The position numbers were made by a program, and so were the translations under genes. From the NCBI GenBank assembly GCA_002381615.1, contig DFWY01000053.1:1-40887 (forward strand): a DNA stretch of 40,887 nt. The letters are read 5' to 3'. The notes under the pieces were generated by a model. The model searched no databases, was not told the DNA's origin, and saw only the letters and a list, made by a program, of their open reading frames with translations. The stretch is from Polaromonas sp. UBA4122. GTDB taxonomy: Bacteria; Pseudomonadota; Gammaproteobacteria; Burkholderiales; Burkholderiaceae_C. Below, one piece after another: positions 14,557 to 33,524 of the stretch. How positions within the stretch are numbered: position 1 is the stretch's first letter; the number at the start of each line of letters is the position of its first letter.

Positions 14557-15423
14557 CGTGAACTCAAAGTCATCAGCCACCATGCGGGCACCATTCTGGT
14601 GGGCCAGCTGGCCGTCAAGGCGTTCGGAGTCGCCGAAACCCTGATTGCAGGGCGTTATAGCAACGCTGCACTGGCAGCGCTGTCCGTGGGTTCAGCCCTT
14701 TACGTCAGCGTCTATGTCGGGCTGATGGGCATTGTGCAGGCCTTGCTCCCTATCTGGGCCGAGATGCTGGGCGGACGCTCGTTGCGGCAAAGCCTCTACC
14801 TGTGCGGCTTTATCACCGTAGCGGGCATGGCCGCCCTGCTATTTCCGGGTCGGCTGCTTCGCTGGGCGCAGGTGCCCGAGTTCATGCGAGATGAGGTACA
14901 TCGCTACCTGAGCATGCTGGCGTTTGCGTTTGCCCCTCCCTTGCTATTCCGGGTCTATAGCACGTTCAACCAGTCTTTGGGGAAACCGCGTCTGGTGACG
15001 TGGCTTCAGGTCGTTGCCCTGGCTGTAAAAATCCCGCTTTCAATCTAGCTGGTGGCCGGCGGCGACGGCGTCGACCCCATGGGTGCCGCCAGCTGTGCCG
15101 AGGCTACGTTGGTGGTTAACTATATATGCTGTGCTGATACTGGCCGTGGTGATGGTGCTGCTGCTGACACAAGATCTTTACGAACCCTTTTGCATCTGGC
15201 GGCCCATGAAGCGGCCCGACTGGTTACAGTTAGGCACTTTTGCCAGGCTGGGTATCCCGGTCGGGCTGGCTTATCTGCTACCAGTTGGCTTATGAGGGCG
15301 TTGCGGGCCGGGGCCGCCAGCACCATTGCTATCGGTCTGGTAGCGACATGCCTTTTGGGCTTGTTGTGGTACGCAGTCCAGCAAAGCGAACGGACGAGCG
15401 CCCGCAAGATTCAAGCAGCCTGA
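14553..15423 (+). pseudogene. Decayed MATE-family multidrug/Na+ exporter
   Basis: Fragments in several frames together read as a MATE exporter. They run from ELKVISHHAGTILVGQLAVKAFGVAETLIAGRYSNAALAALSVGSALYVSVY through VALAVKIPLSI. The lesions are: an apparent one-base insertion at 14557 (removing it gives ATGAGTGAACTC, M-S-E-L); an in-frame TAG at 15046-15048 where Trp is expected; a frameshift in a TA-run at about 15121-15127; a probable internal deletion near 15285; and loss of the C-terminal third. The last readable piece, ATSWLMRALRAGAASTIAIGLVATCLLGLLWYAV, ends against phoR. A functional product is not credible. Confidence 0.85.
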
Positions 15424-16763: not shown

Positions 16764-17485
16764 GTCCCGGATGGCGCCGCGGCAACCAGGGTATGGGCGG
16801 CGACGGACGTCAGCCGGTAGCCTGCACCGCGAACGGTTTCCACCATGGTGCCGGCGGTGCCCAAGGCCTCCCGCAGGCGCTTGATGTGAACGTCGACCGT
16901 GCGCTCTTCAATGAACACATGGTCACCCCATACCTTGTCCAGCAATGCGCTGCGGCTGTGTACGCGTTCGGCATGCTTCATCAGGTAGTGAAGCAGCTTG
17001 AACTCGGTCGGGCCCAGCTTGAGCTCCTGATTCTGAAATGAAATGCGGTGTGTTGCCGCATCCAGCACCAGCGCACCGACGGTGACACAGTCGTTCACCG
17101 ACTCGGGCGCGCGGCGGCGCAGCACCGCACGAATGCGCGCCAGCAACTCCTGGGTGGAAAAAGGCTTGGTAATGTAGTCGTCGGCGCCGGCATCCAGTCC
17201 GGCGACCTTGTCGGGCTCATCTCCCCGGGCCGTCAGCATCAGGATGGGCGTGCTCTTGGTACGCGCCTGTTTTCGCCAGTGGCGTGCCAGCGCAAGGCCG
17301 CTCTGTCCCGGCAGCATCCAGTCCAGCAAAATGACATCCGGCAGCACAGAGTCAAGCTCGCGCTGAGCCGTTACGCTGTCCTGCGCAACCACAGGATCAA
17401 AACCGCCATGCCTCAAGTTAACAGCAATCAGCTCGGCAATGGCCGGCTCATCTTCAACAATCAATACGCGAGGAAGATGTTTCAT
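16760..17485 (-). CDS. phoB: Phosphate regulon response regulator PhoB
   Basis: This 241-residue OmpR-family regulator binds Pho boxes when phosphorylated by PhoR. The receiver domain has the acidic pair (VEDEPA), the phosphorylation site in VILLDWMLPGQSG (Asp about 54) and the Lys in YITKPF. The winged-helix C-terminus contains LGPTEFKLLHYLMKHAERVHSR and VDVHIKRLREAL, the DNA-recognition region. It begins 7 bases after phoU and overlaps phoR by 4 bases. Its binding sites are visible elsewhere in the window, upstream of pstS in particular. Confidence 0.96.
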   Translation of the reverse strand: MKHLPRVLIVEDEPAIAELIAVNLRHGGFDPVVAQDSVTAQRELDSVLPDVILLDWMLPGQSGLALARHWRKQARTKSTPILMLTARGDEPDKVAGLDAGADDYITKPFSTQELLARIRAVLRRRAPESVNDCVTVGALVLDAATHRISFQNQELKLGPTEFKLLHYLMKHAERVHSRSALLDKVWGDHVFIEERTVDVHIKRLREALGTAGTMVETVRGAGYRLTSVAAHTLVAAAPSGT

Positions 17486-17492
17486 TCGACCA

Positions 17493-18194
17493 TTACTTTA
17501 CTGCAGACTCAACCTGCTCCATGGGTGTGTGCCTGACGTCTGCACCCTTGACGATGTAGATGATGAATTCCGCAATGTTCTTGGCATGGTCGCCCACGCG
17601 CTCAATAGCTTTGGCCACAAACAACAGATCCAGGCTTGCGGAAATCGTGCGCGGGTCCTCCATCATGTACGTAATGAGCTTGCGAACAAAGCCATCAAAT
17701 TCCTTGTCAATCTGGTCGTCCTCCTTGAGGATGGATACCGCTGCGGCAGTGTCCATCCGGGCGAAGGCATCCAACGCCTTGCGCAACAGGCCGGAAGCGA
17801 GCTCCGCAGCGATGCGAAGTTCGGAAGACGGCAAAGCACGGGCCGAGCCGCTTTCGATGATCGAATTGACCATGCGTGCGATTTTATCGGCTTCATCACC
17901 CGCTCGCTCAAGGTTGGCCGTGGTCTTTGAAATGGCGATCAACAGGCGCAGATCACGGGCCGTGGGCTGGCGCCGCGCAATGATGGAAGACAAATCGCGG
18001 TCAATGTCGATTTCCATGGCATTGACGCGCGCTTCGGTTTCGATCACCTGGTTGGCGCTCTCGGTGCTGAACTGCGACAGCGCATAGATGGCCAGGCGAA
18101 TCTGGGATTCAACCAGGCCGCCCATCTCCATCACACGCGAGGACAGGCCGTTGAGTTCGCTGTCGAACTGGGTAGATAAATGATTATCAGACAT
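17493..18194 (-). CDS. phoU: Phosphate transport system regulator PhoU
   Basis: This 233-residue all-helical cytoplasmic protein links the Pst transporter to PhoR and keeps the regulon off when phosphate is plentiful. Two PhoU repeats are evident: one around MGGLVESQIRLAIYALS..ETEARVNAMEIDID, and a second around ALDAFARMDTAAAVSILKEDDQIDKEFD, with the metal-binding E/DxxxD motif in each. The C-terminus has VAKAIERVGDHAKNIAEFIIYIVKG. It lies 19 bases after pstB and 7 before phoB in the same operon. Confidence 0.95.
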   Translation of the reverse strand: MSDNHLSTQFDSELNGLSSRVMEMGGLVESQIRLAIYALSQFSTESANQVIETEARVNAMEIDIDRDLSSIIARRQPTARDLRLLIAISKTTANLERAGDEADKIARMVNSIIESGSARALPSSELRIAAELASGLLRKALDAFARMDTAAAVSILKEDDQIDKEFDGFVRKLITYMMEDPRTISASLDLLFVAKAIERVGDHAKNIAEFIIYIVKGADVRHTPMEQVESAVK

Positions 18195-18213
18195 GTTTTT
18201 CTCTCAGTCCCTG

Positions 18214-18993
18214 TCAGCCAAAACGGCCAGTAATGTAGTCTTCAGTCTCTTCACGCTTGGGCTTGAAAAAGAGGTCTTTTGTGGCGCCGAATTCGACCAG
18301 ATCCCCAAGATACATATAGGCCGTGTAATCGCTGCAGCGGGCAGCCTGCTGCATATTGTGCGTCACGATGACCACCGTGTAGTCGCTTTTCAACTCGGCA
18401 ATCAGCTCCTCGATCTTGGCCGTGGAAATTGGATCCAGCGCCGAACAGGGCTCATCCAGCAGCAGCACTTCCGGCTTGATGGCGATGCCACGGGCAATGC
18501 ACAGCCGCTGCTGCTGGCCGCCCGACAGACTGGAACCGCTCTGGTTCAGCTTGTCCTTGACCTCGGACCAGAGCGCAGCCTTGCGCAGCGCCCATTCGAC
18601 CCGCTCGTCCATGTCTGCCGCATTGAGGTTGTCGAACAACTTGACACCAAAAGCAATGTTGTCGTAAATCGACATGGGAAACGGCGTCGGCTTCTGGAAA
18701 ACCATACCCACTTTGGAGCGAATCAACGCCACATCTTTTTTGGAAGTGAGCAGGTTCTCGCCGTCAAACATGACTTCACCTTCCGCACGCTGCTCCGGGT
18801 AGAGCTCGTACATGCGGTTAAAAATGCGCAGCAGGGTTGATTTGCCGCAGCCTGACGGACCAATAAATGCCGTGACTTTATTCTCAGGGATTTCCAGATT
18901 GATGCCCTTTAGAGCGCGAAATTTTCCGTAATAAAAGTCCAGGTTTTTGACCACTATTTTTGACTTTTCGGGTTGGGCAGCGATGGCGTCCAT
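18214..18993 (-). CDS. pstB: Phosphate ABC transporter ATP-binding protein PstB
   Basis: This 259-residue ATPase energises high-affinity phosphate import. It shows Walker [11 protein letters not shown], the Q-loop region [18 protein letters not shown], signature [16 protein letters not shown], Walker [17 protein letters not shown] and switch His in [23 protein letters not shown]. The ATG at 18993 ([23 protein letters not shown]) is chosen. A longer open frame to 19122 runs back into the pstA 3' end and adds non-homologous sequence. It lies 47 bases downstream of pstA. Confidence 0.96.
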
Positions 18994-19040
18994 CTTTAAC
19001 CTTGTCTTGTTGTGTGAATGGATGGCGATCAGCTTTTGTG

Positions 19041-19901
19041 TCAGGCTTTGTTGCGCGTCAGCACGCGCGCCAGAATGTTCAGACCGAGCACCGCCAGGGT
19101 GATCAGGAACACACCCGCCCATGCAAGTTGCTGCCAGTTCTCATAAGGGCTCATCGCAAACTTGAAGATGGTCACAGGCAAGCTGGCCATGGGCTGGCCC
19201 AAATCAGAGGTCCAGAACTGGTTGTTCAGGGCCGTGAACAGCAAAGGGGCAGTTTCACCAGCGATGCGCGCTACGGCCAGCAATATGCCGGTCACCACCC
19301 CAGAGCGAGCGGCCCTGAGCGTGATGCTGGTGATGACCTTCCACTTGGGCGCACCCAGCGCATAAGCCGCTTCGCGCAGACCCGGCGGAACCAGATGCAG
19401 CATGTTTTCAGTGGTGCGTATCACCACCGGAATTACAATCAATGCCAGCGCCAAGACCCCCGCCCATCCTGAAAAGGAATGAAAACGGGACACCACGACA
19501 GCGTAAACAAAAAGGCCAATCACGATTGACGGCGCTGACAGCAGAATATCGTTGACGAACCGTGTCACCGAGGCCAGCCAGCCCTTAATGTTGTACTCGG
19601 CTAGATAAATGCCGGCCATAATGCCAATCGGTGTACCCACAAAAGTGGCGAGCAGCACCATAAAAAAAGAGCCATAGAGCGCGTTTGCAAGGCCACCAAC
19701 TTCGTTGGGCGGGGGCGTCATTTCGGTAAAGGTCGCGAGCGCAATACCGCCAATACCCAGGCGTATGGTTTCCCACAGGATCCAGAACAGCCAGAACAGC
19801 CCGAACGACATGGCCGCCAGCGACAAAATGAGTGCCACCTGGTTGACCCTTTTACGGCGCGCGAACTTGGCCAGGCGAGCATCATGCGTCACCGCGTTCA
19901 T
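19041..19901 (-). CDS. pstA: Phosphate ABC transporter permease PstA
   Basis: This 286-residue inner-membrane permease has six predicted membrane spans. It carries the permease-type EAA loop [46 protein letters not shown], which contacts PstB and ends in the conserved R..GETAP motif. It begins within the pstC stop (4-base ATGA overlap), implying coupled translation of the two permease subunits. Confidence 0.95.
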
Positions 19902-20926
19902 GACTTGCTCCCTTCATTTTTTTTCAATTGGGCCAGCAGCAGCTTGGAAAGCGACAACACCACAAAGGTGATGAAGAACAGTACCAGCCCCAGGTAGATC
20001 AGCGCCGCCTGGTGAAGACCTTCGCCCGCCTCGGCAAACTCATTGGCGAGGGCTGACGTGATGCTGTTGGCTGCCTGAAACAGGCTTGGGGAGAACTGGT
20101 TGAAATTTCCAATGACGAAAGTCACCGCCATGGTTTCGCCCAACGCACGCCCCAGCCCCAGCATGATGCCGCCCACCACACCGGCTTTGGTATAGGGCAA
20201 CACTACCTTGTAAACGACCTCCCATGTGGTAGATCCGAGGCCGTAAGCCGACTCCTTCAGGAGCACCGGCGTGACCTCGAACACATCGCGAATCACGGAA
20301 GCTATAAACGGAATGATCATGATCGCGAGAATGATTCCCGCAGACAATATGCCGATGCCTACCGGCGGCCCCGCAAACAGGGCGCCGAGGTACGGCACAT
20401 TGCCAAAAAGACTCTGCATAGGCTGCTGTACATAGGTCGCGAGAACCGGGCCAAACACCAGCAGACCCCACATGCCGTAAACGATGGAAGGCACAGCGGC
20501 CAGCAGTTCGATGGCTATGCCCAGTGGCCTTTTGAGCCAGGCCGGAGACAATTCAGTTAAAAACAGCGCAATGCCAAAGCTGACTGGCACCGCGATCAGC
20601 AAAGCGATCAATGACGTGGCTAGCGTGCCATAAATCATGACCAGCCCACCGTACTCGTCCTTGACCGGATCCCATACGCTGTTGGTCAGAAAACCCAGAC
20701 CGTACTTGCTGATGGCAGGCCACGCCCCAATGAAGAGTGATGTCAAAATGCCTATCAACAAACCCAGCGTCAACAGCGCCGCCCCAAGTGCAGCCCAGCC
20801 AAAAAGCCGGTCTGCAAAAGGGCTTCTGCGTACAAAATTTACAGGAGGGGGATTCTTCATGTCGCGTCCGGTCACTTTCGTCGGGTCATCAAAAGCTGCC
20901 CGGCCAGCCGGAAGTGTAGTGGACAC
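19898..20926 (-). CDS. pstC: Phosphate ABC transporter permease PstC
   Basis: This permease partner of PstA has multiple membrane spans and the EAA loop [47 protein letters not shown] with the conserved Arg and Glu. It is 342 residues from a GTG start at 20926. An internal ATG at 20860 ([13 protein letters not shown]) would give 320 residues, closer to the usual length of about 320, and is a real alternative. It lies 42 bases after pstS and overlaps pstA by 4 bases. Confidence 0.93.
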
Positions 20927-20968
20927 ATGAGAAACCCCTATCCTACGTCGCTGCAGAAGAAAGACTGC

Positions 20969-22012
20969 TTATTTGTAAGCGACAGCTTTACCAGACGCGT
21001 CCTTAATCTCGCCCCAGGCTTTCTCGATCACAGTTTTCACGGAAGCAGGCATTGGCACATAGTCCAGTTCGTTGGCAATCTTGTCGCCGTTCTTGAAGCC
21101 CCACTCAAAGAATTTCAAGACTGATGCCGCATTGGCTGGCTTATCCTGAACCTTGTGCATCAGAACAAAGGTGGAACCAGTGATGGGCCACGAATCCTTG
21201 CCAGGCTGCTCGGTCAGAATCTGGAAGAAGCTCTTGGCCCAATCGGCGCTTGCTGAAGCGGCCTTGAATGCCACGTCGTTGGGGGTCACGAAGTTGCCAT
21301 CCAGATTCTTCATCAGGGCGTAGGTCATCTTGTTCTGTTTGACGTAGGCATACTCAAGGTAACCAATGGAATTGGGCAGACGGCCAACAAATGCGGCCAC
21401 GCCTTCGTTACCCTTGCCGCCAGCGCCCAAAGGCCAGTTGACGGCCGTACCCTCGCCCACCTTGGATTTCCACTCAGGGCTGACCTTGCTCAGGTAGTTG
21501 GTGAAAATAAACGTAGTGCCCGAACCATCGGCACGGCGAACCGGTGCAATGGCTGCATCGGGCAGGGCCAGTGTCGGATTCAGGGCCTTGATGGCGGGGT
21601 CGCTCCACTTGGTGATTTTGCCGAGATAAATATCACCCAGGACAGGGCCGGTCAGCTTGAGTTGGCCCGGTGCAATTCCCTTGATATTCACCACAGGAAT
21701 GACGCCACCGATCACAACCGGGAACTGCATGAGACCTTTCTTGGTAAGTTCCTCATCTGTCAGAGGCATGTCTGATGCACCAAAGTCCACCGTTTTGGCT
21801 TCGATCTGCTTGATGCCAGCGCCCGAACCCACCGACTGGTAGTTGATTTTTACACCTGTGGCCTTGTTGTAGTCCGACGCCCATTTTGAAACAATGGGAG
21901 CCACAAAAGACGAACCGGCACCTGTCACATCCTGGGCAGCCGACAACGTGGCAAACGACATGACGGCTACGCCCATCACAGCAGTCATCGAAGCTTTGAA
22001 ACTCAATTTCAT
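20969..22012 (-). CDS. pstS: Periplasmic phosphate-binding protein PstS
   Basis: This 347-residue periplasmic receptor delivers phosphate to PstCAB. The Sec signal MKLSFKASMTAVMGVAVMSFATLSAAQ precedes the mature start DVTGAGSSFVAPIVSKWASDYNKATG. Phosphate-contacting blocks follow: SVGSGAGIKQIEAKTVDFGASDMPL and VRRADGSGTTFIFTNYL. The start at 22012 follows AGAGGTGA. Longer in-frame starts would run through the promoter. It is first in the pst-pho operon and is preceded by a Pho box. Confidence 0.96.
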   Translation of the reverse strand: MKLSFKASMTAVMGVAVMSFATLSAAQDVTGAGSSFVAPIVSKWASDYNKATGVKINYQSVGSGAGIKQIEAKTVDFGASDMPLTDEELTKKGLMQFPVVIGGVIPVVNIKGIAPGQLKLTGPVLGDIYLGKITKWSDPAIKALNPTLALPDAAIAPVRRADGSGTTFIFTNYLSKVSPEWKSKVGEGTAVNWPLGAGGKGNEGVAAFVGRLPNSIGYLEYAYVKQNKMTYALMKNLDGNFVTPNDVAFKAASASADWAKSFFQILTEQPGKDSWPITGSTFVLMHKVQDKPANAASVLKFFEWGFKNGDKIANELDYVPMPASVKTVIEKAWGEIKDASGKAVAYK

Positions 22013-22048
22013 AAAATCACCTCTTGGGTTGGTAGGAAACAAGCACTC

Positions 22049-22082
22049 AATGTAATGTCCTTGTGTGACAAAAATATGACAG
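22049..22082 (-). promoter_or_regulatory. Pho box and -10 of the pstS promoter
   Basis: The minus strand reads CTGTCATATTTTTGTCAC (22082-22065), close to the E. coli consensus CTGTCATAAATCTGTCAC, with the two TGTCA half-sites 11 bases apart. Exactly 10 bases later comes TACATT (22054-22049), a plausible -10. The E. coli phoA promoter uses the same 18+10 spacing. The start codon is 37 bases further on. Confidence 0.82.
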
Positions 22083-22120
22083 ATCGCTCCGGGCCTGCTA
22101 ATGGCTTCCATTGGCGTTTT

Positions 22121-23969: not shown

Positions 23970-24034
23970 GGTCTGGCATGCTGATGCGGGTTTCGCGTGA
24001 ATGCTATGCTGACCTTGTCAAACCAAAGCCAGCC

Positions 24035-25534
24035 ATGCAAAACGGAACCCGCCTCGCCGCTGTGGACCTCGGATCCAACAGCTTTCGCCTCGAAATAGGC
24101 CGCCTCGACCACGGACAGATCCACCGGACCGAATACCTCAAGGAAACGGTCCGCCAGGGTAACGGACTCGATGCCGACCGCAACCTGACTCTAGAGGCGA
24201 TGCAGCGCGGCTGGGACTGTCTGGCCCGCTTCGGCGAGCGGCTGGCGGGCTTTAAAAGAACGCAGGTCAGGGCGGTTGCCACCCAGACACTGCGCGAAGC
24301 CCGCAATCGCGAAGAATTTCTGGCGAACGCCCACAAAATCCTGGGATTTTCCATTGATGTCATTTCAGGCCAAGAAGAAGCCCGCCTGATTTACCAGGGC
24401 GTGGCCCACATGCTGCCGCAGTCGGAAGAACGGCGGCTGGTAGTGGATATCGGCGGTCGCTCCACCGAAATGATCGTAGGCAAAGGCCTTGAAGCGCGCA
24501 CCATGGAGTCCTACCGCGTCGGCAGTGTGGCCTGGTCGATGAAGTACTTCTCCGACGGACAGTTCAGCCCACGCGCGTTCGAGATGGCTGAAATTGCCGC
24601 CAAAGCAGTCCTTGATGAAGCCGTCAACGCCTACCATTCAGGCACCTGGGATATAGCCTATGGCTCTTCCGGCACCATCGGGGCCGTCAGCGATGTTCTG
24701 GCTGCCGCCGGCTGGTCACCCGGTGTTGTCACGCGTGAAGGCCTGGACTGGCTACTCGAGCGCCTGCTCAAAGCGCAAAGCGCCGACCGCCTGAAGCTCG
24801 ATGGCATCAAGGATGACCGGCGCGCAGTCATTGGCGGCGGTGTCAGTGTGCTCAGGGCCGTGTTTGATCTGCTGGGTATTGAGCAGATGGAAGCGGCGCA
24901 AGGCGCCCTGCGCCACGGCGTGCTCTACGACCTGCTGGACCGCGAGCAGGATTTGACCGATTTGCGCTCTACGTCTGTGCAGCGACTGGCCAGTAAATTC
25001 AATGCGGATGCCGTGCAGGCCCAGCGGGTCAGTAGAGTCTCGATGCACCTGTTCCAGATGGCTTGCACGGGCGTGCCCCGTGCTGAACCGGAGCGCTACC
25101 AGCGCAAACTGGAGTGGGCCGCGCAACTCCATGAGATTGGCAGCCAGATTTCACACAGCGACTACCACAAGCATGGCGCCTACATTCTGGACAATGCCGA
25201 CGCGCCCGGCTTCGCCCTGCCCGAATTGCACCGCCTGGGCCTGCTGGTACTGGGCCATCGCGGCAAATTGCGCAAGCTGGAGGCCGACTTCGAGGATCGG
25301 GTATTTGTCCAGCAGTTGCTCTGCCTGCGCTTGGCGGTCATTTTGTGTCATGCCCGGCGTGACCCTGACCTCAAGGACCTACGGCTTGAATCCGTTGCCG
25401 AGCCCGGGCGGCTCTTCGTGCTGAACTGCAGGCCCGGCTGGGCCGAGGCCTTTCCTCAATCGGCGTATTTGCTGCAGGAAGAAGTGCTGGCCTGGCAAAA
25501 AACACCGTGGACACTGATCGTTTCCGGGTTGTAA
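24035..25534 (+). CDS. ppx: Exopolyphosphatase (Ppx/GppA family)
   Basis: This 499-residue ASKHA-fold phosphatase releases phosphate from the ends of polyphosphate, and possibly from pppGpp. Signatures are the phosphate-1 loop LAAVDLGSNSFRLEIGRL near residue 8, VRAVATQTLREARNREEFL near 75-95, the phosphate-2 loop VVDIGGRSTEMIVGKG near 140 (Arg where many relatives have Gly), and AYGSSGTIGAVSDVL. A C-terminal HD-like helical domain contains LHEIGSQISHSDYHKHGAYIL. The ATG at 24035 fits the family N-terminus, whereas the earlier frame start at 23978 does not. It faces ppk across the histone-like gene and sixA, so polyphosphate synthesis and breakdown are encoded together. Confidence 0.93.
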   Translation: MQNGTRLAAVDLGSNSFRLEIGRLDHGQIHRTEYLKETVRQGNGLDADRNLTLEAMQRGWDCLARFGERLAGFKRTQVRAVATQTLREARNREEFLANAHKILGFSIDVISGQEEARLIYQGVAHMLPQSEERRLVVDIGGRSTEMIVGKGLEARTMESYRVGSVAWSMKYFSDGQFSPRAFEMAEIAAKAVLDEAVNAYHSGTWDIAYGSSGTIGAVSDVLAAAGWSPGVVTREGLDWLLERLLKAQSADRLKLDGIKDDRRAVIGGGVSVLRAVFDLLGIEQMEAAQGALRHGVLYDLLDREQDLTDLRSTSVQRLASKFNADAVQAQRVSRVSMHLFQMACTGVPRAEPERYQRKLEWAAQLHEIGSQISHSDYHKHGAYILDNADAPGFALPELHRLGLLVLGHRGKLRKLEADFEDRVFVQQLLCLRLAVILCHARRDPDLKDLRLESVAEPGRLFVLNCRPGWAEAFPQSAYLLQEEVLAWQKTPWTLIVSGL

Positions 25535-25557
25535 ATTCGCAGGGTTGCCCTTTTTTT

Positions 25558-25601
25558 TAAACGGTATAAACTATATAAACGGTTTATTCGTACCATTTAT
25601 T
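25558..25601 (+). promoter_or_regulatory. Repeated TAAAYGGTWY motifs before the histone-like gene
   Basis: TAAACGGTATAAA (25558) and TAAACGGTTTATT (25576) are direct repeats 18 bases apart. A third, inverted copy, TAAATGGTAC, is read on the minus strand at 25599-25590. They fill the short AT-rich gap directly before the ribosome binding site at about 25604-25609. The arrangement looks like an operator, perhaps autoregulatory. Confidence 0.5.
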
Positions 25602-25616
25602 TCAAAGGAAATCTTC

Positions 25617-26066
25617 ATGACAACCATAAAAATGGTACCTGTACCGGCTGCGCCCGAGACGCCGGCAAAACAAAAAGCAACCCCGTCAGCGCCGGCAAAA
25701 TTGCCCTTCAGCAAAGTTCCCAACGGCAAAGCTGCTGTCAAAAAATCCTCTGTAAAAAAAGCCGCTCCCAAAAAGGCCACCGCCAAGGCGCCTCTTTCCA
25801 AAGCCTTTGCCCCGGCAAAGCTTGAAAAAGCCGTCAAAGCCAAAAAGCCCAAACTGGTCCGTGACAGCTTTACCATTCCAAAAGCCGAATACGTGGCGCT
25901 CGACGAGCTCAAACAGCGCGCAGCCAAACTGACCCGCCCTGCCAAAAAAAGCGAGCTGCTGCGCGCCGGCATCAAAATCCTGGTCGCTCTGTCCGACGCG
26001 GCATTCCTGACGGCCCTGGAGCAGGTTCCCACCATCAAGACAGGCCGGCCTACTCTCAAAAAGTAA
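25617..26066 (+). CDS. Lys/Ala/Pro-rich histone H1-like protein with helical C-terminal domain
   Basis: This 149-residue basic protein starts MTTIKMVPVPAAPETPAKQ. Residues about 15-80 are a low-complexity Lys-Ala-Pro tail (AVKKSSVKKAAPKKATAKAP) like histone H1, AlgP or the PhaF tail. Residues about 90-140 form a compact domain, RDSFTIPKAEYVALDELKQRAAKLTRPAKKSELLRAGIKIL, suggestive of a ribbon-helix-helix-like DNA-binding fold. Such tails bind DNA, RNA or polyphosphate. AAAGGAA precedes the ATG at 25617. It lies between ppx and sixA-ppk, so a role at polyphosphate granules or the nucleoid is conceivable but not shown. Confidence 0.75.
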   Translation: MTTIKMVPVPAAPETPAKQKATPSAPAKLPFSKVPNGKAAVKKSSVKKAAPKKATAKAPLSKAFAPAKLEKAVKAKKPKLVRDSFTIPKAEYVALDELKQRAAKLTRPAKKSELLRAGIKILVALSDAAFLTALEQVPTIKTGRPTLKK

Positions 26067-26083: not shown

Positions 26084-26557
26084 TCAAAGCATCTCAGGCG
26101 ACTGCACGGTCACCACGACGGTCTGGCTATGGCCGTCACGGTCACGGCTGCGAAGCCACCAGAGGGCGCCCTTTTTGACGGGGCAATCGCTTTCCTGCAA
26201 ACCGAGCAGTTGCGCAATGGTCTGCCCCAGCGTGGGTTGATGCCCCACCACCAGAATCGGCGATTTACTCAGGGGCCATTGCACCAGCTCCAGTAACTGC
26301 GCGGCCGTTGCACCGGGTGCAAGCTCAGTACGGATCTTGTACTTGCGCCCAAGCGCCAGAGCCGTCTGCTCGCAGCGCCGCGCCGGGCTCACCACAATGC
26401 GCGCACCTTCGGGCAACTGCCGGTCCAGCCAGCTGGCCATGCGGAAGGCCTGTTTTTCTCCGCGTGGCGTGAGTGCACGCTCTAGATCACGGCTTCCCAG
26501 CGGATCACCTTCGGGCCAGTCTTCTGCCTCTGCATGACGCCACAAGATCAGGTCCAT
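26084..26557 (-). CDS. sixA: Phosphohistidine phosphatase SixA
   Basis: This 157-residue histidine phosphatase-family enzyme removes phosphate from phosphohistidine, for instance on HPt domains or PTS proteins. The catalytic RHG-type motif is at the N-terminus (MDLILWRHAEAEDWPEGD), followed by LTPRGEKQAFRMASWL, VVSPARRCEQTA (second Arg) and VVGHQPTLGQ (second His). It starts 3 bases after the ppk stop, so it is cotranscribed with ppk. Its 3' end is 17 bases from the convergent histone-like gene. Confidence 0.92.
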   Translation of the reverse strand: MDLILWRHAEAEDWPEGDPLGSRDLERALTPRGEKQAFRMASWLDRQLPEGARIVVSPARRCEQTALALGRKYKIRTELAPGATAAQLLELVQWPLSKSPILVVGHQPTLGQTIAQLLGLQESDCPVKKGALWWLRSRDRDGHSQTVVVTVQSPEML

Positions 26558-26560
26558 GTG

Positions 26561-28669
26561 TTATTTTCCCCAGTGGTTGGGTGACGACGAGTAGCGCGCC
26601 ATCAGGGCCGCCTGTGCGCCGTGGCGCTGCGCCGGGTCTGGCGGATTCACGCGCGCATACGTGCCGTCCGGCTGCAAGTCCCAGGCATCGCAGTCATCGT
26701 GCAGGTAGGCGACCAGGCATTCATCAATGATGCGCTGGCGAATGACAGGATCGGTCACTGGCCAGGCCAGCTCCACCCGGCGCAGCATGTTGCGGTTCAT
26801 CCAGTCGGCGCTTGAGAGATACAGCGTTTCTTCCTCAGCGCAGCGGAAATAAAACACACGCGAATGCTCAAGAAAACGGCCAATCACCGAACGTACGCGG
26901 ATGTTGTCCGTCACGCCGGGCACTTGGGCCGGCAGCATGCAGGCGCCGCGCACAATCAAATCAATTTTCACACCGCGCTGCCCCGCCCTGACCAGGGCCA
27001 GCATCAGGTCTTGGTCGGTCAGCGCATTCATCTTGACCACAATGCGTGTGTCTTTGCCCTGCAGGGCAGCTTCACCCAGCGCATCTATTTTTTCCACCAG
27101 TTTGCGTTGCAGCTGAAACGGCGCCAGCAGCAGGTGATGCAACTTGGGCAAGCGGCTTTGACTGGCCAGATGCACAAATACATTGTCAATGTCCGAAGTC
27201 AACAGAGGATCGGCCGTCAGGTAGCTCACGTCGGTGTACAGGCGGGCCGTACCCTGGTTGTAATTGCCGGTAGACAGGTGGCCGTAGCGGATGAGGTTCC
27301 GCCCCTCGCGCCGGGTCACCAGCAGCATTTTGGCGTGGGTCTTCAGACCCACCACGCCGTAAACCACTTGTGCGCCAATCGACTCCAGCATTTCTGCCCA
27401 GTTGATATTGGCTTCCTCATCGAAACGCGCCTTGAGCTCCACCACCACGGTGACTTCCTTGCCCTGGCGAACAGCCTCCCGCAGCAACACCATCATTTCC
27501 GAATCCGCACCCGTACGGTATATGGTTTGCTTGATCGCCAGTACCTGGGGATCGTCGACCGCCTCGCGTAGAAAGTCCAGGACGCCGTCGAAGCTCTCAA
27601 ACGGCTGGTGAATGGACACATCGCCCTGCTTGAGCCGCTCAAAAAAAGATTGCCCGGGCTGCAGCTGCGTGGGGTAGCAGGCGTTGTAGCGGGGAAAAAG
27701 AAGCTTGGGATCATTGACCAAGTCCACCAGCTGGGTCAACCGCACGAGGTTGACTGGGCCTGGCACCCGGTACAGGGCGAGCGCCGGCAAGTTGAATTGT
27801 TTGAGCAAAAAGTCCGACAAGTATTGCGAGCAGCCGGCCGACACTTCCAGCCGAACGGCCTGGCCGTAGTTGCGCTGCTCCAGACCCTGGCGCAAAGCTG
27901 TTCGCAGATTTTTCACGTCGTCTTCATCCAACGCCAGATCGGAGTGCCGGGTGACGCGGAACTGGGAAAACTGCCCCACTTCCCGGCCTGCAAAAAGCTC
28001 CGCCAGATGGGCCCGAATGATGCTGGACAGCGAAACAAACAGCATGCCCTTTCTATCTCTGCTGCCCTTGCTGCGGCTCGGCATGTGAATCAGGCGCGGC
28101 ACTACCCGCGGGACCTTGACGATGGCAATTTCGTTCTGACGTCCGAAGGCATCATGCCCACCGAGCCGGACAATGAAATTCAGCGACTTGTTGGCCACCT
28201 GTGGAAACGGATGAGAGGGATCCAGGCCAACCGGAATCAGCAAGGGCCGCACCTCCCTTTCGAAATAGGCTTTGACCCAGCGCCGCTGAGCCACGTCGCG
28301 TTCCCCGTGCGAGACGATACGAATGCCGTGCTGTTCAAAGGCAGGTAGCAGACAGTCGTTGTAAAGCGAATACTGGTTTGCCACGATGTCGTGTGCGGCC
28401 GCCGAAAGCGCCTTGAAAGATTGGACCGTGTACAGGCCCTTTTGCTCGTTGCTTTGGGTGGCCGTCAGGTGGGGTGCCGTACGGACCTCAAAAAATTCGT
28501 CCAGATTGGACGACACGATACACAGAAATCTCAGGCGCTCCAGCAGCGGCACATCCGGGCGCTTTACCCAGTCCAGTACCCGCTCATTGAAGGAGAGAAT
28601 GCTGAGGTCGCGGTCCAATAACTGGACGGGTGGCGCAGCAGAGGCCACCGGGATGGGTGAAGTGGGCAT
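26561..28669 (-). CDS. ppk: Polyphosphate kinase 1
   Basis: This 702-residue enzyme polymerises the gamma-phosphate of ATP into polyphosphate, reversibly. It has the N-terminal block LLDRDLSILSFNERVLDWV..LERLRFLCIVSSNLDEFFEVR, the conserved YRTGADSEMMVLLREAVRQGKEVTVVVELKARFDEEANI, then the catalytic His in LKTHAKMLLVTRREG with YGHLSTGNYNQGTARLYTD. The second phospholipase D-like domain holds LYLSSADWMNRNMLRRVE. The start is the ATG at 28669; two TTG codons just before it are possible but less likely. No strong Shine-Dalgarno is visible. It follows agt by 41 bases, and a Pho-box-like site lies inside the agt 3' end. Confidence 0.95.
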   Translation of the reverse strand: MPTSPIPVASAAPPVQLLDRDLSILSFNERVLDWVKRPDVPLLERLRFLCIVSSNLDEFFEVRTAPHLTATQSNEQKGLYTVQSFKALSAAAHDIVANQYSLYNDCLLPAFEQHGIRIVSHGERDVAQRRWVKAYFEREVRPLLIPVGLDPSHPFPQVANKSLNFIVRLGGHDAFGRQNEIAIVKVPRVVPRLIHMPSRSKGSRDRKGMLFVSLSSIIRAHLAELFAGREVGQFSQFRVTRHSDLALDEDDVKNLRTALRQGLEQRNYGQAVRLEVSAGCSQYLSDFLLKQFNLPALALYRVPGPVNLVRLTQLVDLVNDPKLLFPRYNACYPTQLQPGQSFFERLKQGDVSIHQPFESFDGVLDFLREAVDDPQVLAIKQTIYRTGADSEMMVLLREAVRQGKEVTVVVELKARFDEEANINWAEMLESIGAQVVYGVVGLKTHAKMLLVTRREGRNLIRYGHLSTGNYNQGTARLYTDVSYLTADPLLTSDIDNVFVHLASQSRLPKLHHLLLAPFQLQRKLVEKIDALGEAALQGKDTRIVVKMNALTDQDLMLALVRAGQRGVKIDLIVRGACMLPAQVPGVTDNIRVRSVIGRFLEHSRVFYFRCAEEETLYLSSADWMNRNMLRRVELAWPVTDPVIRQRIIDECLVAYLHDDCDAWDLQPDGTYARVNPPDPAQRHGAQAALMARYSSSPNHWGK

Positions 28670-28710
28670 CAACAAGAAAATTTTTTGTCATCAAAGGTAA
28701 GCCTGAGTGT

Positions 28711-29814
28711 TTACTGATTTGATGACAAAGGTGTGACAGTACTTTTGACGGATGTTGCACCGGCATTGACGGGCTTGCAAGCGGTAATTTTCTGGGCAGC
28801 AACCAGGTTACTTTCAAACAGCTGCGCGGCCTGCGCCCAACTGAAGTCCAAGGCACGCGCACGCGGCTCATGACGCGGCACAGCCAGCGCGCTGTAACAA
28901 GCCTGCTGCAAATCGGCGTCCATGACACCCCCGTGACAACTTCCGTCAGGTTTTCCCAGCACTTCCAGTGGGCCATCCACCGGGAAGGCGGCCACCGGCG
29001 TGCCGGTGGCCATGGCTTCCAGCATCACCAAACCAAAGGTTTCCGACTTGCTCGGGAATACAAACACATCGGCCGCGGCGTACACCTTTGCCAGCTCTCC
29101 TCTAGCCAACACGCCCATCCAGCGTACCTGCGGATAGCGTTCCCTGAGCGACGGCTCCAGCGGCCCCACCCCGCAAACGACTTTGCTACCGGGAATGTCC
29201 AGCCGCAAAAAAGTCTCTATGTTTTTTTCGTACGACACCCGCCCCACAAACAGCGAGACCGGTCGCACCAGCGTACCCATGGGCGGGTACAGGAGAGGTT
29301 GGGGCTGGAAGGCAAACAGCTCCGTATCCACACCGTGCGTCCAGCTGCGCAGGTTGCGAAACCCCCGCTGCTCAAGCATGAACAGCACGCCGTTGGTTGG
29401 AACCATCACGCCGGAAGAAGGCTTGTGAAAGTAACGAAACAGCGCATAGCCCCACGACAAGGGAATTTTGAGGGCGGCATGGAGGATTTCAGGAAACTTG
29501 GTGTGAAAGGCCGTCGTGAAACTCAAACCGCGTTTAAGGCAGTAGCTGCGTGCAGCCCAGCCCAGCGGACCTTCTGTGGCGATATGGAGGGCTTCTGGCT
29601 GAAAAACGTCCAGTTTGACGGCCAGGCGGCGCTTGGGGCGGACTGCCAGGTCAATCCCGGCATAGCCCGGGCAAGGCCGGGTAGTGAACAGGCCGGGATG
29701 AATCACTTCAACCTGATGCCCCAGTTCCTCAAGCTCACGCACCAGTTCTACCAGGGTGGTGACAACGCCGTTAACCTGAGGCTGCCAGGCGTCGGTAATC
29801 AGCGCGATCTTCAT
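28711..29814 (-). CDS. agt: GT4 glycosyltransferase, Agt-like (glycolipid synthesis on diacylglycerol)
   Basis: This 367-residue GT-B glycosyltransferase opens MKIALITDAWQPQVNGVVTTLVELVRELEELGH, with acceptor-side motifs HIATEGPLGWAARSYC and FHTKFPE. The donor domain has LFVGRVSYEKNIE, WMGVLARGELAKVYAAADVFVFPSKSETFGLVMLEAMATGTPVAAF with the E-x7-E nucleotide-sugar motif. In alphaproteobacteria a gene of this type (agt) stands beside plcP and glycosylates the diacylglycerol PlcP makes, yielding phosphorus-free glycolipids. Here too it follows plcP with a 4-base overlap. Family is sure. The Agt assignment rests on context and overall resemblance, and the sugar cannot be told. Confidence 0.8.
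   Translation of the reverse strand: MKIALITDAWQPQVNGVVTTLVELVRELEELGHQVEVIHPGLFTTRPCPGYAGIDLAVRPKRRLAVKLDVFQPEALHIATEGPLGWAARSYCLKRGLSFTTAFHTKFPEILHAALKIPLSWGYALFRYFHKPSSGVMVPTNGVLFMLEQRGFRNLRSWTHGVDTELFAFQPQPLLYPPMGTLVRPVSLFVGRVSYEKNIETFLRLDIPGSKVVCGVGPLEPSLRERYPQVRWMGVLARGELAKVYAAADVFVFPSKSETFGLVMLEAMATGTPVAAFPVDGPLEVLGKPDGSCHGGVMDADLQQACYSALAVPRHEPRARALDFSWAQAAQLFESNLVAAQKITACKPVNAGATSVKSTVTPLSSNQ
28722..28739 (-). promoter_or_regulatory. Pho-box-like site inside the 3' end of agt, ahead of ppk
   Basis: The minus strand reads CTGTCACACCTTTGTCAT, matching 14 of 18 positions of CTGTCATAAATCTGTCAT with half-sites 11 bases apart. It spans the last codons of the glycosyltransferase (TVTPLSS) and ends 52 bases before the ppk start. 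The hexamer 10 bases downstream (AACACT) is a weak -10. Confidence 0.5.
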
Positions 29815-30680
29815 GCAGTCACCGCCACATCAGCCTGGCCACGACGCTGGGTTTCATGGGCTGGAGCCCAATGCAACAGCTCCAGCGTGCCGTCGAAGTT
29901 CTCGACCAGCGCGGTGCGGCTCTCAACCCAGTCGCCGTCATTGCAGTACAACACGCCGTTGATGTCGCGCATTTCGGCGCGGTGAATGTGGCCGCAAACC
30001 ACGCCCTGATGGCCACGACGGCGCGCTTCGTTGGCCACCGCCACTTCAAAGTCGGTGACATAGTTAAGCGCGCTCTTGACCTTTTGCTTCAGGTAAGCCG
30101 ACAGCGACCAGTAGGGCAAGCCCATGCGGGCGCGCAGGCGGTTGAGATGCCGGTTGAGTTTGAGTGTGAATTCATAGAGGTTGTCGCCCACATAGGCGAG
30201 CCATTTGGCGCATTGCACCACCGCATCGAAATAGTCGCCGTGAATGATCCACAACTGGCGGCCGTCAGCGGTGATGTGGACAGCTTCGTCAATCACTTCG
30301 ATGCCGCCAAACTGGTGGCCCATAAATTCACGCGCAAACTCATCATGGTTGCCAGGAACGAAAATGATGCGACAGCCTTTGCGAGCGCGCCGCAGCAGCT
30401 TTTGCACCACGTCATTATGGGACTGCGGCCAGTACCACCTGCGGCGCAGCTGCCAGCCATCAACGATGTCACCCACCAGGTACAGGTTGTCGCTGGGATG
30501 GGCTTTCAAGAAGTCCAGCAGGGCAAGCGCCTGGCAGCCGGGGGTACCCAGGTGCAGGTCGGAAATGAAAATTGTGCGGTAGCGCTTGCGCAGGAAGTCC
30601 GCGTCGTCGTCCTGGCCCGGTACGAACCCATCACCAACTGATGCGAGCGCTCCCAAAGCGTCAAAGATGTTTCTCATCAC
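29811..30680 (-). CDS. plcP: PlcP-type metallophosphoesterase (phospholipase C, phosphate-starvation lipid remodelling)
   Basis: This 289-residue calcineurin-type phosphoesterase has FISDLHLG (Asp41, His43), LVGDIVDGWQLRRRWYWPQSHNDVVQKLLRRARKG, VPGNHDEF, IIHGDYFDAVVQCAKWLAYVGD, CGHIHRAEMRDINGVLYCNDGDWVES. The GWQL.R.WYWPQ.HNDVVQK and YCNDGDWVESLTAL-type blocks are those of Sinorhizobium PlcP, which cleaves phosphatidylcholine/ethanolamine to diacylglycerol during phosphate limitation. Automatic pipelines often label such proteins UDP-2,3-diacylglucosamine diphosphatase (LpxH-like). It overlaps both olsB and agt by 4 bases, which supports the lipid-remodelling role. No signal peptide is visible. 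Confidence 0.82.
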   Translation of the reverse strand: MMRNIFDALGALASVGDGFVPGQDDDADFLRKRYRTIFISDLHLGTPGCQALALLDFLKAHPSDNLYLVGDIVDGWQLRRRWYWPQSHNDVVQKLLRRARKGCRIIFVPGNHDEFAREFMGHQFGGIEVIDEAVHITADGRQLWIIHGDYFDAVVQCAKWLAYVGDNLYEFTLKLNRHLNRLRARMGLPYWSLSAYLKQKVKSALNYVTDFEVAVANEARRRGHQGVVCGHIHRAEMRDINGVLYCNDGDWVESRTALVENFDGTLELLHWAPAHETQRRGQADVAVTA

Positions 30681-31528
30681 GCCTCCATTGGATTACCGGA
30701 AAAATGCTTCAAATAACGCGGTGGCAAATCAGCGATGCGCATCATCATGGGCAAGTCGGCCGAGTTGAAGTCCGGATCCCAGGCAGGCGCACCCAGCACC
30801 TTGGCGCCCAGCCGCAGGTACCCCTTGATCAACGTGGGCGGCTCCACATCCAGCGAATCGTCAAGCTGCTCAACCGGCAAGGCGAGGCGCGGCGTCACCT
30901 GGTACTCGATGGCGGCCAGATGCGTTTGCCTGACCTGGCGCCAGATGCTGGCTGCTGCATGCCCGCTGGACACGCCGTTGTGCTGCATCGGAATGCTGGC
31001 GCAACCAATCATGGTGTCGAGTTGGTTGCGCGACATGAACTCGGCCAGCGCGCCCCATAGCGCCAGAATCACGCCGCCATGCCGGTGGTCTGCGTGCACG
31101 CAACTGCGGCCCAGCTCCACCATGCGCTCACGCAGGCTGCGCAGCCGTGTCAGGTCGAACTCGATGTCACTGTAGGTGCTGCCCACGCGCTTGGCCTGCG
31201 TCGGCGTCAGTACCCGGTAAGTGCCGATCACCTCCCGACTCTCCGCGTCACGCACCAGCAGGTGTTCACAGTAGTCGTCAAACAGATCGACGTCATGGCC
31301 GGGCAAGGTTTTCGACAGCGTTGCGCCCATCTCCAGCGCAAACACCTGGTACCTCAGCCGCTGCGCCTGCCGGACCTCGTCCTGGTGCCGGGCCCAGCTG
31401 ACCGAGATTTTCCCCACTGCAGGCCTTTGAACAGGAGCTTGACTGACCGCATGACGGCTTTGATGAAGTGACCCCCGTGGCATTGCGACGGGCGACAATG
31501 CAAAAGTGGGATTGGGCAGTTCTTTCAT
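30677..31528 (-). CDS. olsB: Ornithine N-acyltransferase OlsB-like (GNAT family)
   Basis: This 283-residue acyl-ACP-dependent N-acyltransferase family protein is typified by OlsB, which makes lyso-ornithine lipid, the first step to phosphorus-free ornithine lipids. Diagnostic stretches are RQAQRLRYQVFALEMGA, DVDLFDDYCEHLLVRD, VIGTYRVLTPTQAKRVG, MVELGRSCVHADHRHGGVILALWGALAEFM and MIGCASIPM. A ribosome binding site AAGGAG 6 bases before the ATG at 31528 fixes the start; a longer frame to 31576 is unsupported. It is first in olsB-plcP-agt and overlaps plcP by 4 bases. OlsA, the second acyltransferase, is not in the window. Another substrate amino acid cannot be excluded. Confidence 0.82.
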   Translation of the reverse strand: MKELPNPTFALSPVAMPRGSLHQSRHAVSQAPVQRPAVGKISVSWARHQDEVRQAQRLRYQVFALEMGATLSKTLPGHDVDLFDDYCEHLLVRDAESREVIGTYRVLTPTQAKRVGSTYSDIEFDLTRLRSLRERMVELGRSCVHADHRHGGVILALWGALAEFMSRNQLDTMIGCASIPMQHNGVSSGHAAASIWRQVRQTHLAAIEYQVTPRLALPVEQLDDSLDVEPPTLIKGYLRLGAKVLGAPAWDPDFNSADLPMMMRIADLPPRYLKHFSGNPMEA

Positions 31529-31588
31529 GGCTAACTCCTTGTTTGCTGGGTGTCTGAAAACACTAAAACCACTCACACCGATGCGCTG

Positions 31589-31611
31589 AAAAAAGCCCCG
31601 TCGAAGGGGCT
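31589..31611 (-). terminator. Intrinsic terminator just upstream of olsB
   Basis: On the minus strand, AGCCCC and GGGGCT pair around TTCGAC and are followed by six T residues. It ends 61 bases before the olsB start, on the same strand. It would stop transcripts coming from the region of the Pho-box-like array at 31953-31981. Confidence 0.75.
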
Positions 31612-31628: not shown

Positions 31629-31919
31629 TCAATCACCCGCGACCTGCGAAACCGCTTTCTCGCATCGGCCGGCTGCAGTGGCCGATGCCGGGCGACCACC
31701 CGACAGCCCATCCAGCCACGGTCGGGTGCCCGCCTTGAACCGCAAGCCACCCGGGCCACTGGCCATGGCCTGCGCCGTACAGCGCAGAATGCGCAGGCGC
31801 TGCTTGTCGAGGTCGTGAATGGCCGCGCTGGGGCCTTGGCTGACGCCTGTTCCCCGCTTACCCTGCTCACCGGCTTTGCTCAAATTCATTCCCATCGCGT
31901 GATCCATCGTGCAAGTCAT
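31629..31919 (-). CDS. Possible small protein upstream of olsB
   Basis: This open frame gives up to 96 residues; an internal ATG gives MGMNLSKAGEQGKRGTGVSQGPSAAIHDLDKQRLRILRCTAQAMA followed by a Gly/Ala/Arg-rich tail. I recognise no family. Points in favour are its position between a Pho-box-like array and an intrinsic terminator on the same strand, and the plausible helical segment AAIHDLDKQRLRILRCTAQAM. Points against are the absence of a clear Shine-Dalgarno and mixed codon use. It could instead be a noncoding transcript or nothing. Confidence 0.3.
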   Translation of the reverse strand: MTCTMDHAMGMNLSKAGEQGKRGTGVSQGPSAAIHDLDKQRLRILRCTAQAMASGPGGLRFKAGTRPWLDGLSGGRPASATAAGRCEKAVSQVAGD

Positions 31920-31952: not shown

Positions 31953-31981
31953 ATGTCAGTTCAATGGCACTTGTGTGACAG
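31953..31981 (-). promoter_or_regulatory. Pho-box-like array far upstream of olsB
   Basis: The minus strand carries CTGTCA (31981), GTGCCA (31970) and CTGACA (31959), three half-sites at exact 11-base steps. The first box reads CTGTCACACAAGTGCCAT. No convincing -10 lies at the expected distance. It is 425-450 bases from olsB and just upstream of the small open frame at 31629-31919. Confidence 0.4.
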
Positions 31982-32432: not shown

Positions 32433-32966
32433 TCAATCCAGCCATTTGTGAAAAAACTGCGCCACGCCCATGGCGGGGTCCAGCTGGTAGCCGGCAAAAC
32501 CCACGCGCTCATAGAGCTTGATCGCGCTGGCGTTGCCCTGCAACACCTCAAGCGTCAGCTTGCAGGCGCCGCGCTCGCGCGCAATCTCATCCACCAGCGC
32601 CAGCATCTGCTCGCCGACCCGCTGGCCGCGGTGGCTGGGCAGCACGGCCACGTCATGAACGTTGACCAGCGGTCGGCAGGCAAAGGTGGAAAAGCCTTCG
32701 ATGCAATTGACCAGGCCCACGGGCTGGGCGCCGTCAAACGCGAGTACGCTGAAAGCCTGCGGATGGGCGGCCAGCTCTTTGACGAGGTGACTTTTTGCAT
32801 AGTCACTGAGCGACTCGCCGCCGCCGGCCGGGTCCTGCGCATAAGCGTCCAGCAGCAGGACCAGCGCGCTGGCATGCATGGGATTGTAGTAGTCGGCCCT
32901 GCAAATGAGAAGCTGGGGAGTGCGGGGGTTGGCCGAAGCAAATTCAGTCACACGAGGTTCTCTCAA
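32433..32966 (-). CDS. GNAT-family N-acetyltransferase
   Basis: This 177-residue acetyl-CoA-dependent acetyltransferase has the acetyl-CoA motif VHDVAVLPSHRGQRVGEQMLALVDEIARERGACKLTLEVLQGNASAIKLYERVGFAGYQL, which covers GNAT motifs A and B, and ends in a short FFHKWLD strand. The substrate is unknown. Its ATG overlaps the stop of the truncated amidohydrolase by 4 bases, so it was probably the downstream member of that operon. It is cytoplasmic, with no signal. Confidence 0.85.
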   Translation of the reverse strand: MREPRVTEFASANPRTPQLLICRADYYNPMHASALVLLLDAYAQDPAGGGESLSDYAKSHLVKELAAHPQAFSVLAFDGAQPVGLVNCIEGFSTFACRPLVNVHDVAVLPSHRGQRVGEQMLALVDEIARERGACKLTLEVLQGNASAIKLYERVGFAGYQLDPAMGVAQFFHKWLD

Positions 32967-33341
32967 TGAAAAAATGATGGCGTGATTTTAAAGACGGCGG
33001 CGTCCTGGAGCCGATAGAGGCGTTTCGCGTTCTCACCCATGATGGCGGCCTGCTCTTGCGGGCTCAGGTGGGCCAGCAACTGCTGCGTTTCGCCCCACCA
33101 CTGCGCATAGCTGCCTGAGAGTTCCAGCACCGGCCAGTCACTGCCCCACACCACCCGTGCTGCCCCAAAGCACGCTAACACATGGTCACCCCATCGCCGC
33201 ACGACGCCGGGCCCGGGTGTGCGGCCGGCCTCGGTCACCAGGCCGGAGAGCTTGCACATCGCTCCGGTTTCTGAGGCCAGCTGCGCGATACCGTCGGCCC
33301 ATGGCTGCCACTCCCACGCGGCAATGTCGGGTTTGGCCGCA
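32963..33341 (-). pseudogene. Amidohydrolase (PF04909-type lactonase/hydrolase), 3' fragment
   Basis: About 125 C-terminal residues remain: KPDIAAWEWQPWADGIAQLASETGAMCKLSGLVTEAG, then VVWGSDWPVLELSGSYAQWWGETQQLLAHLSPQEQAAIMGENAKRLYRL. The GSDWPV motif with its metal-binding Asp and the final 'ENAKRLYRL' helix are typical of fuconolactonase-like amidohydrolases. The N-terminal two thirds, including the first metal-binding histidines, are missing. At about 33335-33345 the sequence changes abruptly into the 5' part of a dehydrogenase gene, on the same strand but in another frame. Confidence 0.75.
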
Positions 33342-33524
33342 TGGTCACGTCGCCTGCAGCCAGCTCGACCGGTGTGGCCCAAGCCACACCGCCGTCTTTG
33401 CAAACGCCTGGGCTATCTCGGGCCGCACGTCAAACGCGGGCACGTTGTAGACCGCACGGAGCAATGATCGAGCCATGCCGTTGCCCATGGCGCCCAGGCC
33501 GATCAATCCGACATTCGTGTTCAC
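33341..33524 (-). pseudogene. NAD-binding dehydrogenase (LtnD/3-hydroxyisobutyrate type), 5' fragment
   Basis: A GTG at 33524 starts VNTNVGLIGLGAMGNGMARSLLRAVYNVPAFDVRPEIAQAFAK, the Rossmann GLGAMG.GMA motif of beta-hydroxyacid dehydrogenases, especially the L-threonate dehydrogenase group. After a one-base frame change it continues KDGGVAWATPVELAAGDVTM, then ends at a join with amidohydrolase sequence. About 65 residues remain of an expected 300. It is the other half of the deletion scar. Confidence 0.72.

Follow-up and report, generated by a model that had tools for sequence, protein, structure and literature searches.

A putative PhoB-controlled lipid-remodelling cluster, olsB-plcP-agt, beside ppk and pst-pho genes in Polaromonas

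An operon of two adjacent genes, plcP and agt, with a Pho box upstream has been described in marine heterotrophs, in Pseudomonas aeruginosa (PA3219-PA3218) and in Methylosinus trichosporium OB3b (available excerpts of PMC4796936, PMC8528852 and PMC9239053), the two P. aeruginosa genes being PlcP (PA3219) and Agt1 (PA3218) in the excerpt of PMC8528852. For 21 of 43 Burkholderia sensu lato genomes, Pho boxes ahead of olsB have likewise been reported (excerpt of PMC7814305). The plcP-agt operon, OlsB and the Pho boxes ahead of each are already known; here we describe a locus of Polaromonas sp. UBA4122 in which olsB-, plcP- and agt-like genes form one cluster, followed by ppk and sixA. The stretch analysed, hereafter the window, is the 40,887-nucleotide (nt) contig DFWY01000053.1 (C103), from a genome of 4.17 Mb in 172 contigs that is 99.8% complete. 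The genes concerned are:

30677..31528, minus strand: olsB-like GNAT N-acyltransferase, from the ATG at 31528 at which the first-pass annotation also ended the cluster (the longest frame, 30677-31576, begins at a GTG)
29811..30680, minus strand: plcP-like metallophosphoesterase (family models, identity, tree, motif)
28711..29814, minus strand: agt-like GT4 glycosyltransferase (family models, identity, tree)
26561..28675, minus strand: ppk1, polyphosphate kinase (1062.9 bits against a cut-off of 691)
26084..26557, minus strand: sixA-like phosphohistidine phosphatase (64.2 bits, under the curated cut-off of 74.5)

The olsB-like and plcP-like frames, and likewise the plcP-like and agt-like frames, overlap by 4 bases. 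As in the plcP-agt operon of the excerpts, plcP and agt of the window are adjacent with a Pho box upstream, and the P. aeruginosa record has the 4-base overlap as well. Unlike that operon, the window has olsB ahead of plcP and overlapping it, ppk-sixA with a Pho box of its own behind, and in front a small open reading frame, whose place phoX takes in relatives. With the OlsBA pathway of Sinorhizobium meliloti and Burkholderia sensu lato the genome shares an OlsB-like enzyme and an OlsA candidate, but olsB is grouped with glycolipid genes and the olsA candidate is found on another contig. The pstSCAB, phoU, phoBR, ppx, ppk and sixA genes recall the usual pst-pho and ppx-ppk groups, beside which, unlike the usual case, lipid-remodelling genes are set.

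What was observed here is the order of the genes, their overlaps, the families in which they fall, the Pho-box matches and the conservation; the locus is probably a PhoBR-controlled membrane-remodelling module, with PlcP and Agt for glycolipids, OlsB and OlsA for ornithine lipid, and Ppk and SixA as a neighbouring unit. The enzyme activities, lipid products and transcription in what follows are predictions. At low phosphate, PhoB would switch on both the promoter at the head of the cluster and that of ppk; PlcP would strip phospholipids of their head groups to leave diacylglycerol, to which Agt would add a sugar (glucose and/or glucuronate), giving phosphorus-free glycolipids; OlsB would make lyso-ornithine lipid, to be completed to ornithine lipid by an OlsA encoded elsewhere; and Ppk would handle phosphate as polyphosphate, with Ppk and SixA, under the second Pho box, forming a neighbour unit that could be controlled separately. 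These products are proposed by analogy with relatives described in the excerpts of PMC4796936, PMC8528852, PMC9239053 and PMC7814305. If this holds, both routes to phosphorus-free lipids would lie, with polyphosphate synthesis, within one Pho neighbourhood in Polaromonas and other Comamonadaceae, and the cluster predicts lipid remodelling in that family. In the open-licence literature searched, no description was found of olsB-plcP-agt with a Pho-boxed ppk-sixA or of the small gene ahead of olsB, nor any report of lipid remodelling in Polaromonas or other Comamonadaceae.

Gene order, Pho boxes and joint expression

The gene order was surveyed in the best 80 of at least 576 confirmed loci, ranked by closeness of their OlsB; L189 and L195 come from one genome, and the nearest loci are those of Polaromonas. 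Reading 3' of olsB in steps of less than 500 nt, the genes were plcP-agt-ppk-sixA in 42 loci, plcP-agt-ppk in one, plcP-agt in two, plcP-ppk-sixA in six, plcP in one, ppk-sixA in 11, ppk in five and none in 12, some loci being cut at contig ends. With 42 of 80 named relatives sharing it, the arrangement is not due to chance, and it is not peculiar to this genome. A wider view came from 150 genomes of the order, of which 70 have plcP (E≤1e-20), 100 an OlsB-like gene (1e-15) and 36 a close Agt (1e-80); adjacency was tallied by hand from the match tables. In 31 of the 36 genomes with a close Agt, agt adjoins plcP on the same strand, and in one divergently. Where plcP and olsB are both present (57 genomes), they lie within 10 kb of each other in 13, from eight families and in differing orders, a distance expected by random placement in about 0.5% of cases per genome (4 Mb genome). 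All three genes are together in five genomes of the order: olsB-plcP-agt in the window and in G007, plcP-agt-olsB in G108, and, with a short frame (about 133 codons) inserted ahead of olsB, plcP-agt-olsB again in G031 and G076. Of 200 genomes of the family, 147 have plcP and 73 have a close agt (1e-60).

Pho boxes were sought with the consensus CTGTCATNNNNCTGTCAT, as given in the excerpt of PMC8528852, allowing at most 3 mismatches. The following bear on the cluster and its surroundings:

31953..31981, minus strand: Pho-box array CTGTCAC-ACAA-GTGCCAT-TGAA-CTGACAT, 11-base spacing, two overlapping matches of 3 mismatches each
28722..28739, minus strand: Pho box CTGTCACACCTTTGTCAT, 2 mismatches, inside the last agt codons and 46 nt ahead of the ppk frame
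22065..22082, minus strand: Pho box CTGTCATATTTTTGTCAC, within the longest pstS frame, at its 5' end

The olsB-side box begins 453 nt upstream of olsB, and just 3' of the array a possible fourth repeat, GCGTCAC, and a -10-like element, CAGAAT, are found. Both boxes are conserved in relatives, that of ppk more so than that of olsB. Upstream of ppk a box occurs in 42 of 66 loci at up to 2 mismatches and in 57 of 66 at up to 3 (random stretches of the same loci, 1.1% and 2.7%), and in the 600 nt upstream of olsB in 17 and 37 of 79 loci, respectively (random stretches, 2.4% and 6.0%). In nine of ten checked loci in which phoX intervenes, the olsB-side box was found farther upstream. It is this recurrence in relatives that makes the case for a Pho setting, from which PhoB-dependent expression of the cluster is predicted.

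Several points weigh against a jointly controlled module. The survey of 80 took the loci nearest by OlsB and is biased towards close kin rather than being a fair sample; in 16 of the 80 loci ppk follows olsB without plcP or agt in between; and in G049, of the same family, olsB, agt and ppk are together while plcP lies about 1.66 Mb away from olsB-agt. No olsB-side box was found within 600 nt at 3 mismatches in 42 of 79 loci, and the whole window holds six Pho-box matches against 2.4 expected, a number reached or exceeded in four of 100 shuffles and so only mildly unusual. The varied gene content suggests a site framed by olsB and ppk at which plcP and agt come and go. It is conceivable, if unlikely, that these Pho genes are co-located without joint expression, olsB having its own promoter and the plcP-agt cassette merely lying between olsB and ppk, as the variable presence of plcP and agt there, the hairpin ahead of olsB and the separate ppk box would permit; however, the 4-base overlaps across olsB, plcP and agt in the window imply coupled translation, and the proximity of plcP to olsB recurs in 13 of 57 genomes and eight families.

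From the letters alone, the first-pass annotation had seen three same-strand genes with 4-base overlaps followed by ppk and sixA beside pst-pho genes, which the frames and family models bear out, and it had placed them in a setting of phosphate limitation, in agreement with the Pho boxes and pst-pho genes of the window. Its single transcript extending to ppk is not upheld, as ppk has its own conserved Pho box and polyphosphate synthesis need not depend on the lipid transcript. In the window, moreover, a small frame and a terminator-like hairpin separate olsB from the upstream Pho box.

Family placement of the three enzymes

The best models for the GNAT protein are the two OlsB equivalogs (151.2 and 146.4 bits; next family, 41.6), so that OlsB is its best family and ornithine N-acylation is its predicted activity. 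Against this, the protein stays under both curated cut-offs (350 and 320, respectively) and is only 30% identical to S. meliloti OlsB, which itself missed the first cut-off (242.3 against 350) and passed the second (511.5 against 320). We therefore name it OlsB-like and not OlsB. These shortfalls would also suit an enzyme that acylates another amino acid or an amine, yielding an aminolipid other than ornithine lipid; this is improbable, as the OlsB models lead by more than 100 bits, homologues occur in 100 of the 150 order genomes, and ornithine lipids are produced by Burkholderia that have an OlsB homologue (excerpt of PMC7814305). An OlsA candidate is encoded on another contig, C148. It shares 34% identity with an S. 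meliloti protein for which an OlsA model is passed; the candidate scores 137.8 against a cut-off of 300, a further point of weakness for the ornithine-lipid route.

The GT4 protein shares 49.4% identity over 334 residues with P. aeruginosa Agt1 and 44.8% with an R. leguminosarum GT4, and WaaG and WaaB fall outside in the tree (support 100/99). Against a firm assignment, the base of the Agt tree is unsettled, the bootstrap had not converged, and a second GT4 type (30-36% identical) is nested inside, so that the tree shuts out WaaG and WaaB but sets no boundary for Agt. The protein is best described as Agt-like, with sugar transfer to diacylglycerol as its predicted activity. Close to plcP and olsB, at a distance of no more than 6 kb, two other families carry a further GT4 of a longer type, about 35-40% identical (G020, locus L064; G060, locus L061; G012; G104), which is possibly another glycolipid synthase.

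The plcP-like protein is 52.7% identical to an S. meliloti frame located beside an acyl-homoserine-lactone synthase and a LuxR-type gene (sinI/sinR-type), and 56.7% identical to a P. aeruginosa frame flanked by azoR3 and cyaB. By their neighbourhood we take these frames to be SMc00171 and PA3219; the tags are absent from the records. In a 41-row tree with several long branches, the window protein stands with the reference PlcPs and is split from E. coli LpxH and the LpxH of its own genome (support 100/100). The PlcPs have the motif GNHD where both LpxHs have GNRD, and the metallophosphoesterase motifs D41/H43, G70-D71, G110-N111-x-D113, H147 and G230-H231-x-H233 are invariant in five of five rows. 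Neither LpxH cut-off was reached (52.5 bits against 134; 44.9 against 190.35), and a separate full LpxH is encoded in the genome (G000:C41, 241.6 bits). An LpxH identity was rejected on the separate gene, the tree split and the GNHD motif, and a PlcP-type enzyme is supported, with conversion of phospholipid to diacylglycerol as the predicted activity. That these are lipopolysaccharide synthesis genes, the phosphoesterase being LpxH-type and the GT4 a lipopolysaccharide core glycosyltransferase, might be read from the recorded names of the homologues and from the weak LpxH match of 52.5 bits, but it is highly improbable and already largely refuted, since that match misses the cut-off of 134, reference PlcPs score alike on the same model (55.1 and 38.1 bits), LpxH is encoded separately, and the trees and motif oppose it. 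Public records name the nearest homologues UDP-2,3-diacylglucosamine diphosphatase, a label that is misleading on PlcP-type genes. A second PlcP-like protein is encoded in the same genome (L071, G000:C136:15530-16249; 38% identical); in the PlcP tree it sits basally on a long branch.

The PlcP-type and Agt-like assignments of the first-pass annotation are hence retained, the phosphoesterase not having grouped with LpxH; the OlsB-type assignment is kept as the best-scoring family and loses its full name to the missed cut-offs. The distant OlsA partner that it expected has a candidate on C148.

The small reading frame at the head of the cluster

Between the olsB-side Pho box and olsB, two further elements are found:

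31629..31895, minus strand: conserved small open reading frame, 88 amino acids from the ATG at 31895, taken provisionally as the start (31907 and 31919 hold further in-frame ATGs)
31594..31611, minus strand: terminator-like hairpin and T run, between the small frame and olsB

The order in the window is olsB-side Pho box, CAGAAT, small frame, hairpin with T run, and olsB, and in an alignment of 20 selected loci this arrangement is present in most, with L163 and L206 as exceptions. The small frame was detected in 43 of the 80 named loci (tblastn, E≤1e-8), every one open from an ATG or GTG, and its full consensus core, LRILRCTAxAMASSPGGLRFKAGTRPWL, in 41 of the 43, L194 and L195 having an altered core without PWL. 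One of the loci with the small frame, L161 of Polaromonas sp. JS666, also has the full order olsB-plcP-agt-ppk-sixA. In a coding test on the 28-codon core of 43 sequences (40 named loci, the window, L101 and L125), variation at codon positions 1, 2 and 3 was 0.132, 0.071 and 0.308, and the median ratio of non-synonymous to synonymous variation (pN/pS) was 0.245 in the reading frame itself and 1.42 and 1.66 in the two alternative frames; the small frame thus looks to be selected as a protein. Searches of Pfam (E up to 0.1) and of NCBIfam (E up to 1) gave no match for the window protein. The frame stops 8-9 nt ahead of olsB in nine loci (L199-L204 and L207-L209), and lies 758-778 nt from it in L163 and L206. 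Where the gap is at least 40 nt, a hairpin with T run is found in 21 of 28 loci (random stretches, 1.9%).

A spread of the small frame across Burkholderiales was rejected, as it is hardly seen outside close relatives: it was detected in four of 200 genomes of the family, with a weak match (E 3e-4) in one of the four, and in one of 150 genomes of the order, namely its own. Of the roughly 100-250 candidates in each genome, these scans mostly scored 26 or 34 and may have missed some. A known RNA upstream of olsB was likewise rejected, Rfam at the gathering threshold giving only tRNA; sub-threshold matches were BcKCsr2 (27.3 of 40; plus strand, inside olsB), SpF51 (22.9 of 50; at the hairpin) and HOTTIP_3 (15.7 of 50).

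In 14 other loci of the 80, the gene directly before olsB encodes a PhoX-type phosphatase and stops 61-118 nt upstream of olsB. PF05787 was checked on L174 alone (L174:5934-7886, plus strand; 563 bits), the remaining phoX calls being tblastn matches to the L174 PhoX. A Pho-box match (up to 4 mismatches) lies 66-92 nt ahead of the phoX start in 13 of the 14. No locus has both small frame and phoX in this position; 18 have neither, four have phoX elsewhere in the locus and one is cut. In the genome of the window no PhoX match was found, in a search run without a positive control.

Compared start to start with the leader of the L174 PhoX, the window protein scored 78 against 21.6 ± 4.2 for shuffles (0 of 500), and the first half of the small proteins beat all 200 shuffles in 25 of 43 cases, the best control protein also reaching z 5 in four of 43. 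The tail of the small proteins beat all shuffles against PhoX residues 601-650 in three of 43 and against 541-600 in none. With hhalign, the small proteins matched ten Polaromonas PhoX leaders at a probability of 80.8 (two of the ten rows having extra upstream residues), a wider PhoX set at 3.4 and diverse PhoX alone at 0.5; the likeness weakens with distance, both of the small frames and of the PhoX proteins compared. On this mixed evidence we lean slightly towards the small frame being a reduced phoX, while descent in the reverse direction or a chance likeness could account for the same data. One might go further and suppose that the reduced phoX was kept as a gene, its Pho box and start now yielding a short protein that lacks the phosphatase domain, and that translation of this protein together with the terminator sets read-through into olsB-plcP-agt in a leader-type control of membrane remodelling; we consider this rather doubtful. 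The small gene is amenable to testing.

Neighbouring genes and further observations

Towards the other end of the window lie the remaining phosphate genes:

23978-25534, plus strand: ppx (Pfam)
15411-22111, minus strand: pstSCAB-phoU-phoB-phoR (NCBIfam)

PstS, PstC, PstA, PstB, PhoU, PhoB and PhoR each passed at least one curated NCBIfam cut-off. Between ppx and sixA, a 173-amino-acid frame (25545-26066, plus strand) gave no match in NCBIfam and a sub-threshold match only in Pfam, and a homologue is also found between sixA and ppx in relatives. Upstream of the cluster, a frame at 32963-33403 (minus strand) covers just positions 177-289 of a 289-position amidohydrolase model and, with this C-terminal part alone matched, is perhaps a remnant. 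Finally, among the reference records, CP090106.1, titled S. meliloti plasmid pSymB (3.7 Mb), contains rpoN, trpS, metK and mutS and by this gene content looks like the chromosome.

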